A stretch of DNA of 64,000 nucleotides, taken from positions 31,731 to 95,730 of the forward strand of contig JAJZJZ010000002.1 of NCBI GenBank assembly GCA_021809755.1, in the 5' to 3' direction. The notes beneath the pieces were generated by a model. It was not told where the DNA came from. It ran no database searches and worked only from the letters and a program-made list of their open reading frames with translations. Source of the DNA: Thermoplasmata archaeon (GTDB taxonomy: Archaea; Thermoplasmatota; Thermoplasmata; Thermoplasmatales; Thermoplasmataceae). The translations under genes were made by a program, and so were the position numbers. Shown here one piece after another: positions 32,216 through 59,396 of the stretch (the first letter of the stretch is position 1; each line of letters opens with the position of its first letter).

Positions 32216-33184
32216 CTATTGCTTCCTAGCCAGATAGGACAATCGCCTGTTACGGTTTCTCTGAGTGAGCCACGAAATTAGCCTTCCAAATCTTCCCATT
32301 AAAGGGGGAATTGGGTTATCCCATCCTTCAAGTTTACGAATCAGGGAAGCCACAGCGCCGGGATTACCTGTCATCTTTGCTGCGTATCTATCTGCGCTTC
32401 CGTTTTGATTAAGAGCCATAAATCCAATTATTAACGGGGAAAATATAATCTCGATCAGTAACAGGACGCCGACAATAGGAAGGATGATGATGCCAAGGTT
32501 TGGAAATCCACCCATCAAGATATAAGCAAAAATGTCAGCTTCAAAAGCGAAGACAGTTGCAATCAGGTATACTATTCTGGTGTTTTCGCCGTGGGAGTAT
32601 TTGAAGAATGAATAGGCAAGTAAAGCGTCCGTTTCATCTGGAGATAGTGTTTCTATTAACGAATCAAGCAAAAATATCTTCCTTTCCTTTAGCGTGATAG
32701 CAATCTTTTTCCGGCGGAAATCTGTAAACTGAGAAAGATAGACAGAGGGAATACCTTTGTCGTTGCTTTCAAGCATTGTGGCTATCCTTTCAGTCAGTTC
32801 CGCACTGTAAACCCCACTGGGAAATGTCGGGCCAGCCTTTGTCTTCAAATAATGGGCAATGGCGTATGAAGCAGCAAATATGGACCCGGTTAAAATTACG
32901 ATTCCGATGACCTGCTTTTCCAGCAGTGATGGTAAATATACAAGCGTTGACACCAAGGTTGCTACAGTTCCCTCAAACAGGTATAATGCTAAGAATACGG
33001 TAGTTCTGGACTTTATGCTGTTTCTCAGTAGCCACACCTCAAGATAAGAAGAAACCAGAAGTGAAGACCATATGACGGGAAGAAGATAGATGAGCTGAAG
33101 CAATCTGCTTTCACCAACCCCTATTAGAATGATCAGTGGGATACTCATTGGTATACTGGCAAAATTGTCTGGACTCCTTCGCAT
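32216..33184 (-). CDS. M48-like integral membrane protein lacking the HExxH zinc site
   Basis: The 322-residue protein has four N-terminal membrane helices and a cytosolic part laid out like an M48 (HtpX/Ste24) peptidase: KIFLLDSLIETLSPDETDALLAYSF followed later by NGSADRYAAKMTGNPGAVASL, the second family motif that normally supplies a zinc-binding acidic residue. Where M48 enzymes have HExxH, this one reads AYSFFKYSHG, so both His and the Glu are gone. It is probably a catalytically dead homolog or has acquired another role. It is monocistronic as far as I can see. Confidence 0.7.
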   Translation of the reverse strand: MRRSPDNFASIPMSIPLIILIGVGESRLLQLIYLLPVIWSSLLVSSYLEVWLLRNSIKSRTTVFLALYLFEGTVATLVSTLVYLPSLLEKQVIGIVILTGSIFAASYAIAHYLKTKAGPTFPSGVYSAELTERIATMLESNDKGIPSVYLSQFTDFRRKKIAITLKERKIFLLDSLIETLSPDETDALLAYSFFKYSHGENTRIVYLIATVFAFEADIFAYILMGGFPNLGIIILPIVGVLLLIEIIFSPLIIGFMALNQNGSADRYAAKMTGNPGAVASLIRKLEGWDNPIPPLMGRFGRLISWLTQRNRNRRLSYLARKQ

Positions 33185-33369: not shown

Positions 33370-34842
33370 TCAGTCCTTATATCTGGCAAGCGTATATGCA
33401 AAGAAGAACGGTATGATCATCCATAAAATGCCGGCTATTATGAGGGTTGGGCTGATGATTCCGTATGCAGCAGGGTTGATTGTCTCAGCACCAAAAAGTC
33501 CGAACTTATCTGTAAACATTGCCTGCACCAGACTTGAATATCCGGCGGGGCTTGCATAATCAAAGGCAATGTTTGCAAGAATATATGCAGAGGTGCTTGA
33601 CGATACATTCAGGGCAGAAAGTACAGCTACAGGTATAATTCCCCAGAACAGATCAAAAACTATAAACACTCCTATGGAACCCCCAAGCAGTGTGCTTTGG
33701 GATTTCACAACATGTGAAAAGAAATAAACAATGGCCAGAAACGCAGTACCCTCAACGACATACGTCCATAGAAAATACAGGCTGAAATAAACTGAAAGAT
33801 ACATACCAAAGTAGTGGTGTATTATCAGGGAGGAAAAAATCACTGATAACGTCACTGCTATTATTATAGCTATCACATTGGATGTAAATCTGGAGATGAT
33901 GACACCTCCTCTGGTTACTGGTCTTTTCATCACGGATTCAAGCACACCGCTTGTCCGGTCCCTGCCATAGGTCAGATACCCCGCAAATATTGCAAGGATT
34001 GGAATCAGAAAACCCAGTATTTGGGAAGTTCCCGAAAATACAAGAATCTGTAGGGAGCTCTGTGTCATGGGCACATAATCTGTAAGCGGCCCTATAACGT
34101 AAACATATTGCGGCTTAATCATAGAGAATACCTGAAAAACGTCACTATTATTCTTTGCCACAACTGCATAAGTATTATTTATATCTCCATAGGTTACACT
34201 TGGGAAAAAGGATTTAACAACAAAATTTGACGCATTGAATTTAAACGAATAATTTTTTGCAGCAGAGTACTGAGATTCCCCAATAGAGTAATTTGAAACA
34301 TAAATTCCAATCTGCGGTGCTGATGATCCGTTACTGCCTACATACAGCATCAGGAAGCCTAAACTGCTGGTGTTATACGGATTCACGATCCCGGGAATCA
34401 CGCTGAAACCGGAAAACCTTTCCTTTGGATCAACTTGATATTCTGTCTGGGTAGTTGTTTTTGAGCTCCTCAAAGTAGAATAGGTATAGTTAACGCTAAT
34501 AACAATTGATGATTTAGAGGTATTTACTTGAAATGTTGCATTGGCAAAGCCCTTCAAACCTGTTTTTACCGAATGAAAGGTGCCATTATATTCAAAATGT
34601 GCAATCACTCCGCTGGATGGTTCTCCATATGCATTATGAGCAAATCCCACCATTGTGATATTTGTACCTTTAATATAATAACCGTAGTTTAAGCTTGACT
34701 TAGCAAAGATTGAAGGAGGTGAGTTGAAAGTAACAGAAGACTCATAGGCCAGTAGCGAGGAAAAGCCAACTATGGCTATGATAAGAATTATAACAAACTT
34801 ACTTGTCAGTGTTCTCCTAATTTCGTAAATTATTGGTTTTAT
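33370..34842 (-). CDS. ABC-2-type exporter permease, apparently starting at AUA
   Basis: This is the membrane subunit of an ABC exporter, with an N-terminal helix, a large extracytoplasmic domain of about 200 residues, and a C-terminal block of five or six helices. The ORF track starts at 34653, but the same frame continues upstream and encodes KPIIYEIRRTLTSKFVIILI, a classic first cytosolic segment plus helix. The first in-frame codon after the upstream stops is ATA at 34842; it overlaps the ATPase stop and lies 5 bases after GGTGAT, a good ribosome site. No ATG, GTG or TTG is available there (a CTG occurs 11 codons later). I therefore extend the gene to the ATA codon. Confidence 0.8.
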   Translation of the reverse strand: MKPIIYEIRRTLTSKFVIILIIAIVGFSSLLAYESSVTFNSPPSIFAKSSLNYGYYIKGTNITMVGFAHNAYGEPSSGVIAHFEYNGTFHSVKTGLKGFANATFQVNTSKSSIVISVNYTYSTLRSSKTTTQTEYQVDPKERFSGFSVIPGIVNPYNTSSLGFLMLYVGSNGSSAPQIGIYVSNYSIGESQYSAAKNYSFKFNASNFVVKSFFPSVTYGDINNTYAVVAKNNSDVFQVFSMIKPQYVYVIGPLTDYVPMTQSSLQILVFSGTSQILGFLIPILAIFAGYLTYGRDRTSGVLESVMKRPVTRGGVIISRFTSNVIAIIIAVTLSVIFSSLIIHHYFGMYLSVYFSLYFLWTYVVEGTAFLAIVYFFSHVVKSQSTLLGGSIGVFIVFDLFWGIIPVAVLSALNVSSSTSAYILANIAFDYASPAGYSSLVQAMFTDKFGLFGAETINPAAYGIISPTLIIAGILWMIIPFFFAYTLARYKD

Positions 34843-35756
34843 CGATCATCACCTATCAATTTGAAAAAGAACTCCTCAAGACTTTCCCCCATCGGGTTGA
34901 ATTTCCTCAACCTGAAACCTGATTTCATGAGTTCTTCTGAGATGTCAACGATCCTTTCATCACTTATTGTCAAGTTTCTCACAGTCAATTCATTACCAGA
35001 TACTTCAACGTCACCATATTTCTCAAGCAACTTTTCACATTCAATACTATAATTATCTACAACTATATGGAGAACGGTATTTCCAAGAGATTTCATTTCA
35101 AATCTGCTTAGTACCCTTATCAATTTCCCATGATCTACTATGGCCACTCTGTCCGCAAGATCCTCTATCTCGTTCAATATGTGGGATGACAGAAGGATGG
35201 CTTTTCCTTCTTTCTTCATCCCAAGAATAAGTTTCCTTACGAAGAGAACCCCCTCTGGATCGAGACCATTTAGGGTCTCGTCAAAAAGAATATTTTGTGG
35301 ATCCCCAATAATTGATTCCGCGATCGCAAATCTCTTCTTCATTCCCTGAGAGAAGTTCCTCAACTTCTTGTCAACATGTTCTGACAATCCAACATTTTCA
35401 AGCAGCTCGTTGATTCTTCTTTCAACGTTAATGTCTCCAAATCTGTAAAATCCCGCATAGTACCTCATAAGTTGAAGTGGTTTCGCATTCATCTCAAAAT
35501 TTGGTTGTTCTGGAATCCACCCAACGCCTTCCTCTGCCTTAATCTTTTCACTTACAATATCAAAGCCATCAACTGTTATTTTGCCAGATGTGGGAATTAT
35601 TATTCCAGAACACATTCTTATTGTAGTGGTTTTTCCTGCTCCGTTTAAACCTACAAGACCGAGAATTTCCCCATCTCTCAAATCTAGTTTAAGATGATCA
35701 ACTGCAAGCGCAGTCTTTGATGAAAATGATTTACTTACCGTCTCTATGTTTATCAT
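34839..35756 (-). CDS. ABC exporter ATP-binding subunit
   Basis: The 305-residue ATPase has Walker A GLVGLNGAGKTTTIRM near residue 38, the Q-loop region GWIPEQPNFEMNAKP, signature NFSQGMKKRFAIAESI, Walker B NILFDETLNGLDPEG and the switch His in LLSSHILNEIEDLADR. A C-terminal domain of about 90 residues follows, as in the CcmA/DrrA exporter group. It pairs with the permease gene directly downstream, whose first codon overlaps this stop. Exported substrate unknown. Confidence 0.93.
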   Translation of the reverse strand: MINIETVSKSFSSKTALAVDHLKLDLRDGEILGLVGLNGAGKTTTIRMCSGIIIPTSGKITVDGFDIVSEKIKAEEGVGWIPEQPNFEMNAKPLQLMRYYAGFYRFGDINVERRINELLENVGLSEHVDKKLRNFSQGMKKRFAIAESIIGDPQNILFDETLNGLDPEGVLFVRKLILGMKKEGKAILLSSHILNEIEDLADRVAIVDHGKLIRVLSRFEMKSLGNTVLHIVVDNYSIECEKLLEKYGDVEVSGNELTVRNLTISDERIVDISEELMKSGFRLRKFNPMGESLEEFFFKLIGDDR

Positions 35757-35932: not shown

Positions 35933-36515
35933 TGTCAACGCCAATCAACTTTTTTCCAAAAACGCCAATTGAATATTTTCCACCCGTATTTAGATTTTCT
36001 TTCACTCCTTTTTCACCTCATTTATTATGACATTTCCAGTTCTTTTACGATCTTTCAGTCTGTATGATTCTCCTCTTATGTTCACAACATTGCAATGATG
36101 CAGAATACGATCAAGGACAGCAGATGCCATGACAGAATCGCCAAGTACCTCACCCCATTCTGAGAACGATTTGTTTGAGGTGTATATGGTGGAATGCTTC
36201 TCATATCTTGATGAAACAAACTGGAAGAATAAATTGGATTCTTCTCTTGTAAGGGGAAGATATCCAATCTCATCAACTATCATCAACGGAAACCTTGCAT
36301 AGGTTGCAAGACGGTATGACAGTTTCGATGAGAGGAAATCCTTTCTCAATATCTGGACAAGCTTAACCGCCGTGATATAATATATGGATATATCAGAGAA
36401 AGCAGCCTGCATTCCAAGTGCAACGGATAAATGTGTTTTACCAACACCCGGTGGTCCAAGGAATACCACATTCTCATTATTGTGAATGAACCGCATGGTC
36501 ATGAGATCGTTGATA
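35933..36515 (-). mobile_element. Truncated IS21 remnant (right end plus istB fragment)
   Basis: The segment begins TGTCAACGCCAATC (inverted right end with a second AACGCCAATTGAATATT repeat) and runs into the 3' two-thirds of istB, stopping abruptly near 36515. Neither istA nor the left end remains. The retained protein sequence is almost the same as that of copy 1, so it derives from the same subfamily. Confidence 0.85.
36002..36502 (-). pseudogene. istB: istB fragment, N-terminus lost
   Basis: The 166 residues keep Walker A (GPPGVGKTHLSVALG) and Walker B (LMIVDEIGYLPLTREESNLF) but lack the first 80-90 residues; the homology begins at NDLMTMRFIHN and the sequence upstream is unrelated. The C-terminal end (SYRLKDRKRTGN) differs from copy 1 and is closer to copy 2, hinting at recombination between subtypes. 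Not expected to work without istA. Confidence 0.88.
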
Positions 36516-36796
36516 TGCTCCCTTTATTACTTGTACAGTATTAACGAGATATTATAATCATCATCCTATGGTTATATTGGTCATTCTGACGGCATTCAAC
36601 TTTAACATTTGAGTAAATTGTTTCTTTAAAGATATATTCAATCAAGGATCAATAGTTCCCTATCTATCTAATATAACATTGAATGTATTAATCAGATCAA
36701 TATATTTCTGACGCTTTGAAGAAAAAGTCTCTCAAAGGCCTATTTTAAAAGAAAAATGGTATTTTGGTCTCCTGTAAATATGATTCACAGATCATC

Positions 36797-56743: not shown

Positions 56744-57423
56744 ATAGTTTAAGAACATATAAACCATGGTTTTTTCCCCGCGATATATAAAAACAAAAAA
56801 AACAGGAACTGTAAAAGCAATCTGTTCAAGCGCATAATGTTGAAGCAAGGAACTAAAAAAATAGATAAACGAAGAAGGATAAATGGAATATTATCGTGAT
56901 TATTTGTTCAATTACGCGAATTCAAGCAATTTTTCAAGCGTGTTAACAACATATGAATTTTCCGGTAGTGGGTTCACAAGATATGATAATTCCGAGGACC
57001 ACTTCATTAAGTTCAAAGCTTCTCTGATCTTTTCTCTAAAACGATTCGTATTGAATTGTGCAAAGCCGCATCAAAAGCTTCCTTCACATAAGAAAACGCT
57101 GGTTTATTCAGGTAAAGTGAGTCAAGAATTCCCTTTTCTATTGAGGCAATGTAAAAGTTTTGAATTTTCTCAAATCCAAAAAATCTTTAACTGTCAACTG
57201 TTCTGAATTCTATTCCGTTGTCTCCAAGATTAATCTCCCTGTGTCTCTTCAAGGATATAACACTGTATGTGTTTATGATCTGCTCAATGACAGAATAATA
57301 TTAAAATGCTGCAAACAGGCTAATATATGATGGAATGTAAACGCCCATTCAAATTTACCCATTTTCGCCCATTGAAAAGTATCCAGAAAAGGCAATTGAA
57401 TATTTACCACTCCATACATTTTC

Positions 57424-58638
57424 ATGCTGGAGATTGTAAATGCGCTAAAAGCGGAGGATTGGCATATGATTAAATCAATGAAAGAACAGGGAATGAGCAT
57501 AAGTGAGATAGCAAGGAGAACTGGTGCAAGCAGGAAAACTGTTAGGAAATACATCGCAATGGAAAAACCTGCGAAATACAGCAGAGGGGGGAGACAGTCC
57601 GTCATTGCCCCTTACACCGATTATGTAAGGAGTAGGATTGACAAATATAACCTCTCTGCTGTCAGGATATATGAAGAGATCAGGGAAAAAGGTTATCCTG
57701 GGTCATACACAACTGTCAAGAGGCTATGCAGGGAACTGCGCAAGGACCGCAGGATACAGGCTGTATACAGGTATGAGACTGAACCTGGAAAACAGTCCCA
57801 GGTCGATTTCGGTGAATTCGGTCACATTGAAATTGATGGAAAGCAAAGAAAACTCTACGCCTTCTCCATGATACTTGGATATTCCAGGATGAGGTATGTG
57901 AAATTCACCACTGACATCTCAACAGAGAATGTCATTAAGATACACCTCAATGCATTTTCATTCTATGGTGGATTCACTGACACGATACTATACGACAACA
58001 TGAAGCAGATCGTCATAGACCGGAAGATAAAGGCATCTGAATCGACATTCAACCAGAAGTTCCTAGATTTTGCAGAGTACTATGGCATAGTCATAAGGTT
58101 ATGCTATCCCTACAGGCCTGAAACAAAGGGGAAGATTTAGAATACAATCAAATATCTGAGGTACAATTTCTTCAATGGAAGGACTTTCACCGATCTCAAT
58201 GATGTAAACATACAGTGCGCAGGGTGGCTGAATAAGGTAAACTCACAGGTACATGGAACAACACATGAAATACCCTTGGAAAGGCTGAAGAAAGAATCAC
58301 TCAATCCGGTATCTGCAGTACCGGCATACATGACAAGGAAGGAGGAGATCCGCAAGGTCTCAAGGGATTGTTATATATCATACAAGGGAAACAGGTATTC
58401 CGTCCCTTGGAAATATTCGGGAAGAGAATGCAGAATAGTTGAGGAATCTTCCATTCTAAAGATAGAGATCGATTCCAGTATTGTTGCCGAACATGGAATT
58501 CTCACAGGAACAGGAAGGACGTCAAGGAAGAAGGAACATTTTGAAGGATTGCTTAAGGCCATAAGGGAAGAGAATTCCGCCATATATGAGCAGAAAGTGG
58601 AAGAGAGGAACCTGAAGACATATGACGGGGTGATCTGA
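57424..58638 (+). pseudogene. istA: istA with a stop codon at the catalytic Glu
   Basis: The reading frame is continuous from ATG 57424 to the TGA at 58638 except for one TAG at 58138-58140. In copy 1 the same place reads KGKVERNIGYLR; here it is KGKI, stop, NTIKYLR, so the stop falls exactly where the third DDE residue belongs. The first two catalytic Asp residues (QVDFGEFG, ILYDNMKQIV) remain. The ORF track splits this gene into 57424-58140 and 58276-58638. The truncated product should be inactive. Confidence 0.92.
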
Positions 58639-59396
58639 TGGATTCATATGAAAGAGTTCATGAGTATCTTTCAAAACTTGGTCTCACAAGAATGGAAAGC
58701 ATCATTGATTCATACCTTGAAGCATCCCATGACAGAGCGGTAATGGACATACTGGATCACCTTCTTTCAGAAGAGCTGAAACATAAGGTCTCAAAGAAGA
58801 CAGAGAACATGCTTAACTGGTCCGGTTTTCCCTTCAGGAAGACGCTGGATGATTTCGATTTCTCATTTCAACCATCCATTGACAGATCTGTCATTGATGA
58901 ACTCATGACCATGAGATATTTACACAACACCGAGAATGTTGTTTTTCTTGGTCCGCCGGGTGTGGGGAAGACACATCTGTCAGTAGCACTGGGAATGAGG
59001 GCAATCATGTCGGATATCCCGGTTTATTATACATCTGCAATGAAACTTATCCAGACACTTAAGAGAGACTATGATCTCAAGAGGCTGGAATACAGGATAA
59101 AGACATATTCAAGGTTCAGGCTCATGATAGTGGACGAGATCGGTTACCTTCCCCTGACCAGAAAGGAATCGAACCTGTTCTTCCAGTTTGTTTCATCAAG
59201 ATATGAGAAGCGTTCCACCATATACACATCCAACAAGTCATTCTCAGAGTGGGGTGAGATATTAGGGGATCAGGTCATTGCGGCAACTGTCCTTGACAGG
59301 ATACTGCACCACTGTGTGGTGGTGAATATAAGGGGAGAATCCTATAGGCTGAAGGACAGAAGAAAGAGTTCTTTACCAACAATGAAAAAGGAGTGA
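58638..59396 (+). CDS. istB: IS21 helper ATPase IstB, copy 2
   Basis: The 252-residue AAA+ ATPase has Walker A GPPGVGKTHLSVALG and Walker B LMIVDEIGYLPLTRKESNLFF, both intact. The ATG overlaps the istA TGA by one base. It differs from copy 1 mainly in residues 10-50 and in the C-terminal 20 residues. Without a working IstA in the same element it could act only in trans. Confidence 0.93.
   Translation: MDSYERVHEYLSKLGLTRMESIIDSYLEASHDRAVMDILDHLLSEELKHKVSKKTENMLNWSGFPFRKTLDDFDFSFQPSIDRSVIDELMTMRYLHNTENVVFLGPPGVGKTHLSVALGMRAIMSDIPVYYTSAMKLIQTLKRDYDLKRLEYRIKTYSRFRLMIVDEIGYLPLTRKESNLFFQFVSSRYEKRSTIYTSNKSFSEWGEILGDQVIAATVLDRILHHCVVVNIRGESYRLKDRRKSSLPTMKKE

Follow-up and report, generated by a model that had tools for sequence, protein, structure and literature searches.

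The 64,000-nucleotide stretch of DNA analysed here (the window) comes from an uncultured Thermoplasmata-type archaeon and carries a pair of ABC exporter genes on its minus strand. The upstream gene encodes the ATPase (76% identical to its ortholog in genome G061), and the downstream gene encodes a permease of the ABC-2 exporter class, as defined by an ABC2_membrane domain adjoining an ABC ATPase gene. The two genes meet in a four-base overlap (ATAA) that combines the upstream stop codon with the downstream start position. The features discussed below are the following; the Shine-Dalgarno (SD) duplex energies assume the standard archaeal anti-SD sequence, as no 16S rRNA gene was found in the assembly.

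34839..35756, minus strand: ABC transporter ATPase, 305 aa (Pfam ABC_tran, PF00005, 3.3e-26)
33370..34842, minus strand: ABC-2 type permease, 490 codons from ATA plus stop (Pfam ABC2_membrane_2, PF12679, 3.5e-17; 36 orthologs at 35-75% identity)
34841-34839, minus strand: ATPase stop codon TAA
34839..34842, minus strand: ATAA stop/start overlap (NTGA in most orthologs)
34840..34842, minus strand: ATA at the conserved initiator position (NTG in 36/36 orthologs)
34848..34854, minus strand: SD-type AGGTGAT (duplex -9.3 kcal/mol, register 4)
34807..34809, minus strand: CTG, codon 12, a possible weak fallback start after AGGAGA (-7.0 kcal/mol, register -1)
34651..34653, minus strand: ATG, codon 64, the first in-frame canonical codon, inside the conserved domain (SD -4.0 kcal/mol, register 9)

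Behind the permease, a 322-aa protein with hydrophobic segments and without a Pfam match is encoded at 32216-33184 (minus strand), and no homolog of it was found beside the orthologous ABC pairs fetched. An IstB-like ATPase fragment (36002-36523, minus strand), located some 250 bp upstream from the operon, lacks about 84 N-terminal profile positions and is a remnant of an IS21 element.

The ATPase/permease junction

On the minus strand, at about 34853-34831, the junction reads AGGTGAT GATCG ATA AAA CCA ATA. The ATPase frame ends as TTG ATA GGT GAT GAT CGA TAA, and the permease frame runs TGA TGA TCG ATA AAA CCA ATA ATT TAC GAA, so that it is closed on its 5' side by TGA TGA, followed by TCG and then ATA. 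The ATA begins 5 nt after GGTGAT. No ATG, GTG, or TTG is present in the permease frame between ATA and codon 64, and there is thus no nearby canonical substitute start. An earlier note on this DNA had described a permease frame reaching 63 codons upstream of its first ATG (34653), with an ATA in initiator position that overlaps the ATPase stop 5 nt after GGTGAT; its coordinates and spacing agree with the sequence throughout, the TAA of the overlap occupying 34841-34839 and the ATA falling in a column that is conserved among orthologs.

Two arrangements that would dispense with an ATA start were rejected. A fusion of ATPase and permease by frameshift or read-through is incompatible with the TGA TGA just 5' in the permease frame, and read-through of the TAA leads into another frame. 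A start at the out-of-frame ATG at 34849 followed by an indel or frameshift (M-I-D-K, with one base skipped into P-I-I-Y) does not fit either, as the distance from SD to start equals that in the nearest ortholog, without any indel.

In a census of 58 non-overlapping open reading frames of at least 120 codons within the window, a canonical start was missing from the first 22 codons in two, namely the permease, with a run of 63 codons, and a transposase fragment split by a nonsense codon, with 45. Calculated from the codon usage of the permease itself, 63 codons in a row without a start have p ~0.03, and by itself this run is only mildly unusual. Elsewhere in the window, an IS21-type istA transposase gene (57403-58635, plus strand) is split by one in-frame TAG (58138-58140) at a position that holds Glu in homologous copies, and the istB behind it (58638-59393) is intact.

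Orthologs and candidate start codons

Searches of relatives and of genome contigs delivered 36 permease orthologs with at least 35% identity, and those with organism titles are Thermoplasmata/Thermoplasmatota metagenome-assembled genomes. All 36 begin exactly at the ATA column with an NTG codon (ATG in 27, GTG in 5, TTG in 4, any other codon in none), which makes the ATA observation solid. The start of the orthologs lies nearly always within NTGA, most often as a four-base overlap with the ATPase stop TGA. The nearest ortholog (JAMDAM010000010.1, 75% identity) has GTGA at the junction, and the SD spacing is the same there (GGTGATAAACA GTG) as in the window (GGTGATGATCG ATA). Among the orthologs compared, ATA at the start column is confined to this genome, and a non-canonical start conserved in relatives, as in regulatory cases such as ccpN, was not found. 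A substitution of the start codon in one lineage is well supported by this comparison.

The earlier note had proposed this ortholog comparison, expecting ATG, and had explained the codon by a single base change from ATG. ATG indeed predominates, and a single G-to-A transition in an ATGA overlap would have two effects: TGA becomes TAA at the end of the ATPase gene, where the change is silent, and ATG becomes ATA at the permease start. Such a change accounts for the ATA, but ATG as the immediate ancestor is uncertain: with GTGA in the nearest ortholog, the codon may have reached ATA in two steps.

The codons downstream of the ATA are under clear constraint. Compared with the nearest ortholog, dN is 0.089 for codons 2-64, 0.171 for codons 65-490, and 0.157 for the ATPase, while dS is saturated. 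The N-terminal stretch is 81% identical to the nearest ortholog. Of its positions, 26 are conserved in 90% or more of the closer orthologs, and its residues 14-32 form the first hydrophobic segment. The low dN and the membrane segment identify the stretch as genuine coding sequence, as the earlier note had assumed when it called the first segment typical. It is scarcely credible that translation begins at the ATG at 34653 (codon 64). The frame has no canonical codon before that ATG, and an automatic gene caller would put the start there, but its SD is poor (-4.0 kcal/mol at register 9) and the product would lose the first membrane segment together with 63 conserved residues found in all orthologs. 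Given the strong constraint on codons 2-64 and the membrane segment that they encode, this ATG is not the ancestral or real start. Gene callers would nevertheless cut the permease by 63 codons at this place and miss its first membrane segment.

A start at the CTG of codon 12 (34809-34807) would shorten the permease by 11 residues and keep the first membrane segment. It has an SD-like AGGAGA upstream (-7.0 kcal/mol), but its register of -1 lies outside the range of 2-5 in which most strong SDs of the window fall, and AGGAGA itself represents the Arg-Arg codons of the IKPIIYEIRRT motif, the 11 preceding residues that are among the most conserved. Furthermore, the codon varies among orthologs (CTT, CTA, CTG), and we regard this start as very improbable. 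The SDs of eight scored permease orthologs range from -8.3 to -10.8 kcal/mol at registers 2-5. As the SD in front of the ATA (-9.3 kcal/mol, register 4) is better than those of the CTG and of the ATG at codon 64, any initiation should take place at the ATA.

Condition of the gene and of the assembly

Genome G000, to which the window belongs, is a draft metagenome assembly in 179 contigs, with 86% completeness and 2.25% contamination, and species-level collections yielded no conspecific sequence. The ATA could thus be a consensus or assembly error, or the base of a minority strain, with ATG as the true codon, since a single base accounts for everything. On the other hand, no frameshift or stop was noted in the non-transposon genes of the window, and wrong bases are generally uncommon in consensus sequences from assemblies. 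We judge such an error to be quite unlikely.

If the base is real, the permease may be a recent null allele, in which the start has been lost, essentially no permease is made, and decay is just beginning, with too little time for further lesions. Several observations are in keeping with this. The orthologs in two genomes, G031 (G031:C125, L016) and G009 (G009:C13, L028/L054), are each split into two frames, which suggests either repeated loss of the exporter or assembly errors and indicates that the permease is sometimes dispensable. Moreover, no permease ortholog was found in the three other genomes of the genus, and an intact distant paralog is present on contig C86 of the same genome (L002/L003, G000:C86:1163-2713; 27-32% identity to the permease), which has an ordinary ATG start. 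At otherwise conserved permease sites, seven changes have occurred in the window lineage compared with none in the nearest ortholog. The ATPase, however, shows the same tilt (four changes at conserved sites versus none), so that the effect looks lineage-wide and nothing in it is specific to the permease. The permease frame of 490 codons is also intact, without a stop or frameshift. In relative-rate counts with five outgroups, the window gene and its nearest ortholog gave 26-34 versus 22-30 changes for the permease and 19-27 versus 11-16 for the ATPase, revealing no excess decay of the permease beside its partner. Neither additional frame lesions nor a protein rate above that of the partner gene, the usual marks of a pseudogene, were therefore seen; a very recent loss could look the same and would leave no trace, because dS is saturated. 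AUA initiation has also seldom been zero where it was measured. A complete null is in our view fairly unlikely.

Possible initiation at AUA

Throughout the genome, SD-spaced ATGA is enriched (GGTGA-N4-6-ATGA occurs 91 times versus 27 times in the reversed control), whereas GGTGA-N4-6-ATAA is not (93 versus 93). Of 30 such ATAA loci viewed in context together with the permease, the permease alone combines a long upstream frame ending there, a long downstream frame, and no in-frame upstream extension. These results led us to reject AUA as a general start codon of the genome, and the permease ATA is an isolated case. A search for initiator tRNA (GGGCTNATAACCC) delivered one gene with anticodon CAT, which speaks against an altered initiator tRNA.

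With its start codon altered, the permease is probably synthesised in small amounts, if it is synthesised at all. We give slightly more than an even chance to a recent and real mutation of the start codon that has left weak, coupled initiation at the AUA. In this scenario, the ancestral NTG start inside the NTGA overlap with the ATPase stop would have mutated to give ATAA. Ribosomes ending ATPase synthesis would stop within the same four bases, where they would be held by the intact AGGTGAT, and could re-initiate at the AUA, the ordinary CAU initiator tRNA pairing there with a mismatch at the third position. Production of the full-length permease would then fall far below the normal rate. The substitution relative to the orthologs, its conserved position, the SD and its spacing, the N-terminal constraint, and the lack of other lesions argue for this model and are each documented by the sequence comparisons; the lack of genome-wide enrichment of ATAA after SDs argues against weak initiation. 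The reality of the base, the coupling, and the occurrence of some initiation are inferences.

Work on other organisms bears on these steps. In archaea, four-base overlaps impose strict translational coupling by termination-reinitiation in most of the gene pairs tested (PMC6728339, PMC10666635). In Staphylococcus aureus, the AUA starts of ccpN and citZ yield about 10% of AUG expression, and ccpN reaches as much as 30% in rich medium (PMC13009471). For AUU, another near-cognate codon, PMC10666635 cites a value of about 0.3% from an experiment covering all 64 codons. Against the model, archaeal aIF1 destabilises initiation complexes on non-AUG mRNA (PMC6237735, citing work on S. solfataricus). 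From this action of aIF1, the coupling, and the low AUA rates, a reduced and possibly very low synthesis of full-length permease would be expected.

The further proposal that this is a natural AUA-initiated archaeal gene, working at a reduced level through termination-reinitiation at the AUAA overlap, is tentative and would rank below an even chance. If true, post-termination archaeal ribosomes would tolerate a start codon that is rejected by de novo, aIF1-policed initiation. If the base is genuine, the locus offers a natural test of archaeal AUA initiation in a stop/start overlap behind a strong SD. It also points to an evolutionary cost of NTGA overlaps, in which a base change without consequence for the upstream stop can abolish the downstream start. 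Modest but clear-cut, it is a natural example of start-codon loss and an archaeal candidate for a known kind of event.

A limited full-text literature search found no archaeal precedent for an AUA start, which is weak evidence. The archaeal four-base overlap pairs resemble the ATPase/permease pair in geometry, in encoding subunits of one complex, and in the upstream SD; the AUA start half (AUAA) is not among the forms named for such overlaps in the excerpts of PMC6728339 and PMC10666635. The GTC start of Streptomyces sigR (PMC5472188) is likewise a non-NTG start that lowers synthesis, but it is described there as regulatory and under IF3 control, whereas the permease ATA is a change in one lineage that shows no sign of having been selected for. 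Natural AUA start codons are known in bacteria from S. aureus infC, ccpN, and citZ (PMC13009471), where the AUA also occupies the initiator position behind a strong SD. That of citZ is a strain-lineage change (PMC13009471) and, like that of the permease, restricted to one lineage. The S. aureus cases are bacterial and backed by ribosome profiling and/or reporters, whereas the permease is a sequence-based archaeal candidate; infC and ccpN are, moreover, regulatory, whereas the permease is an exporter gene with a presumably coupled stop/start overlap.
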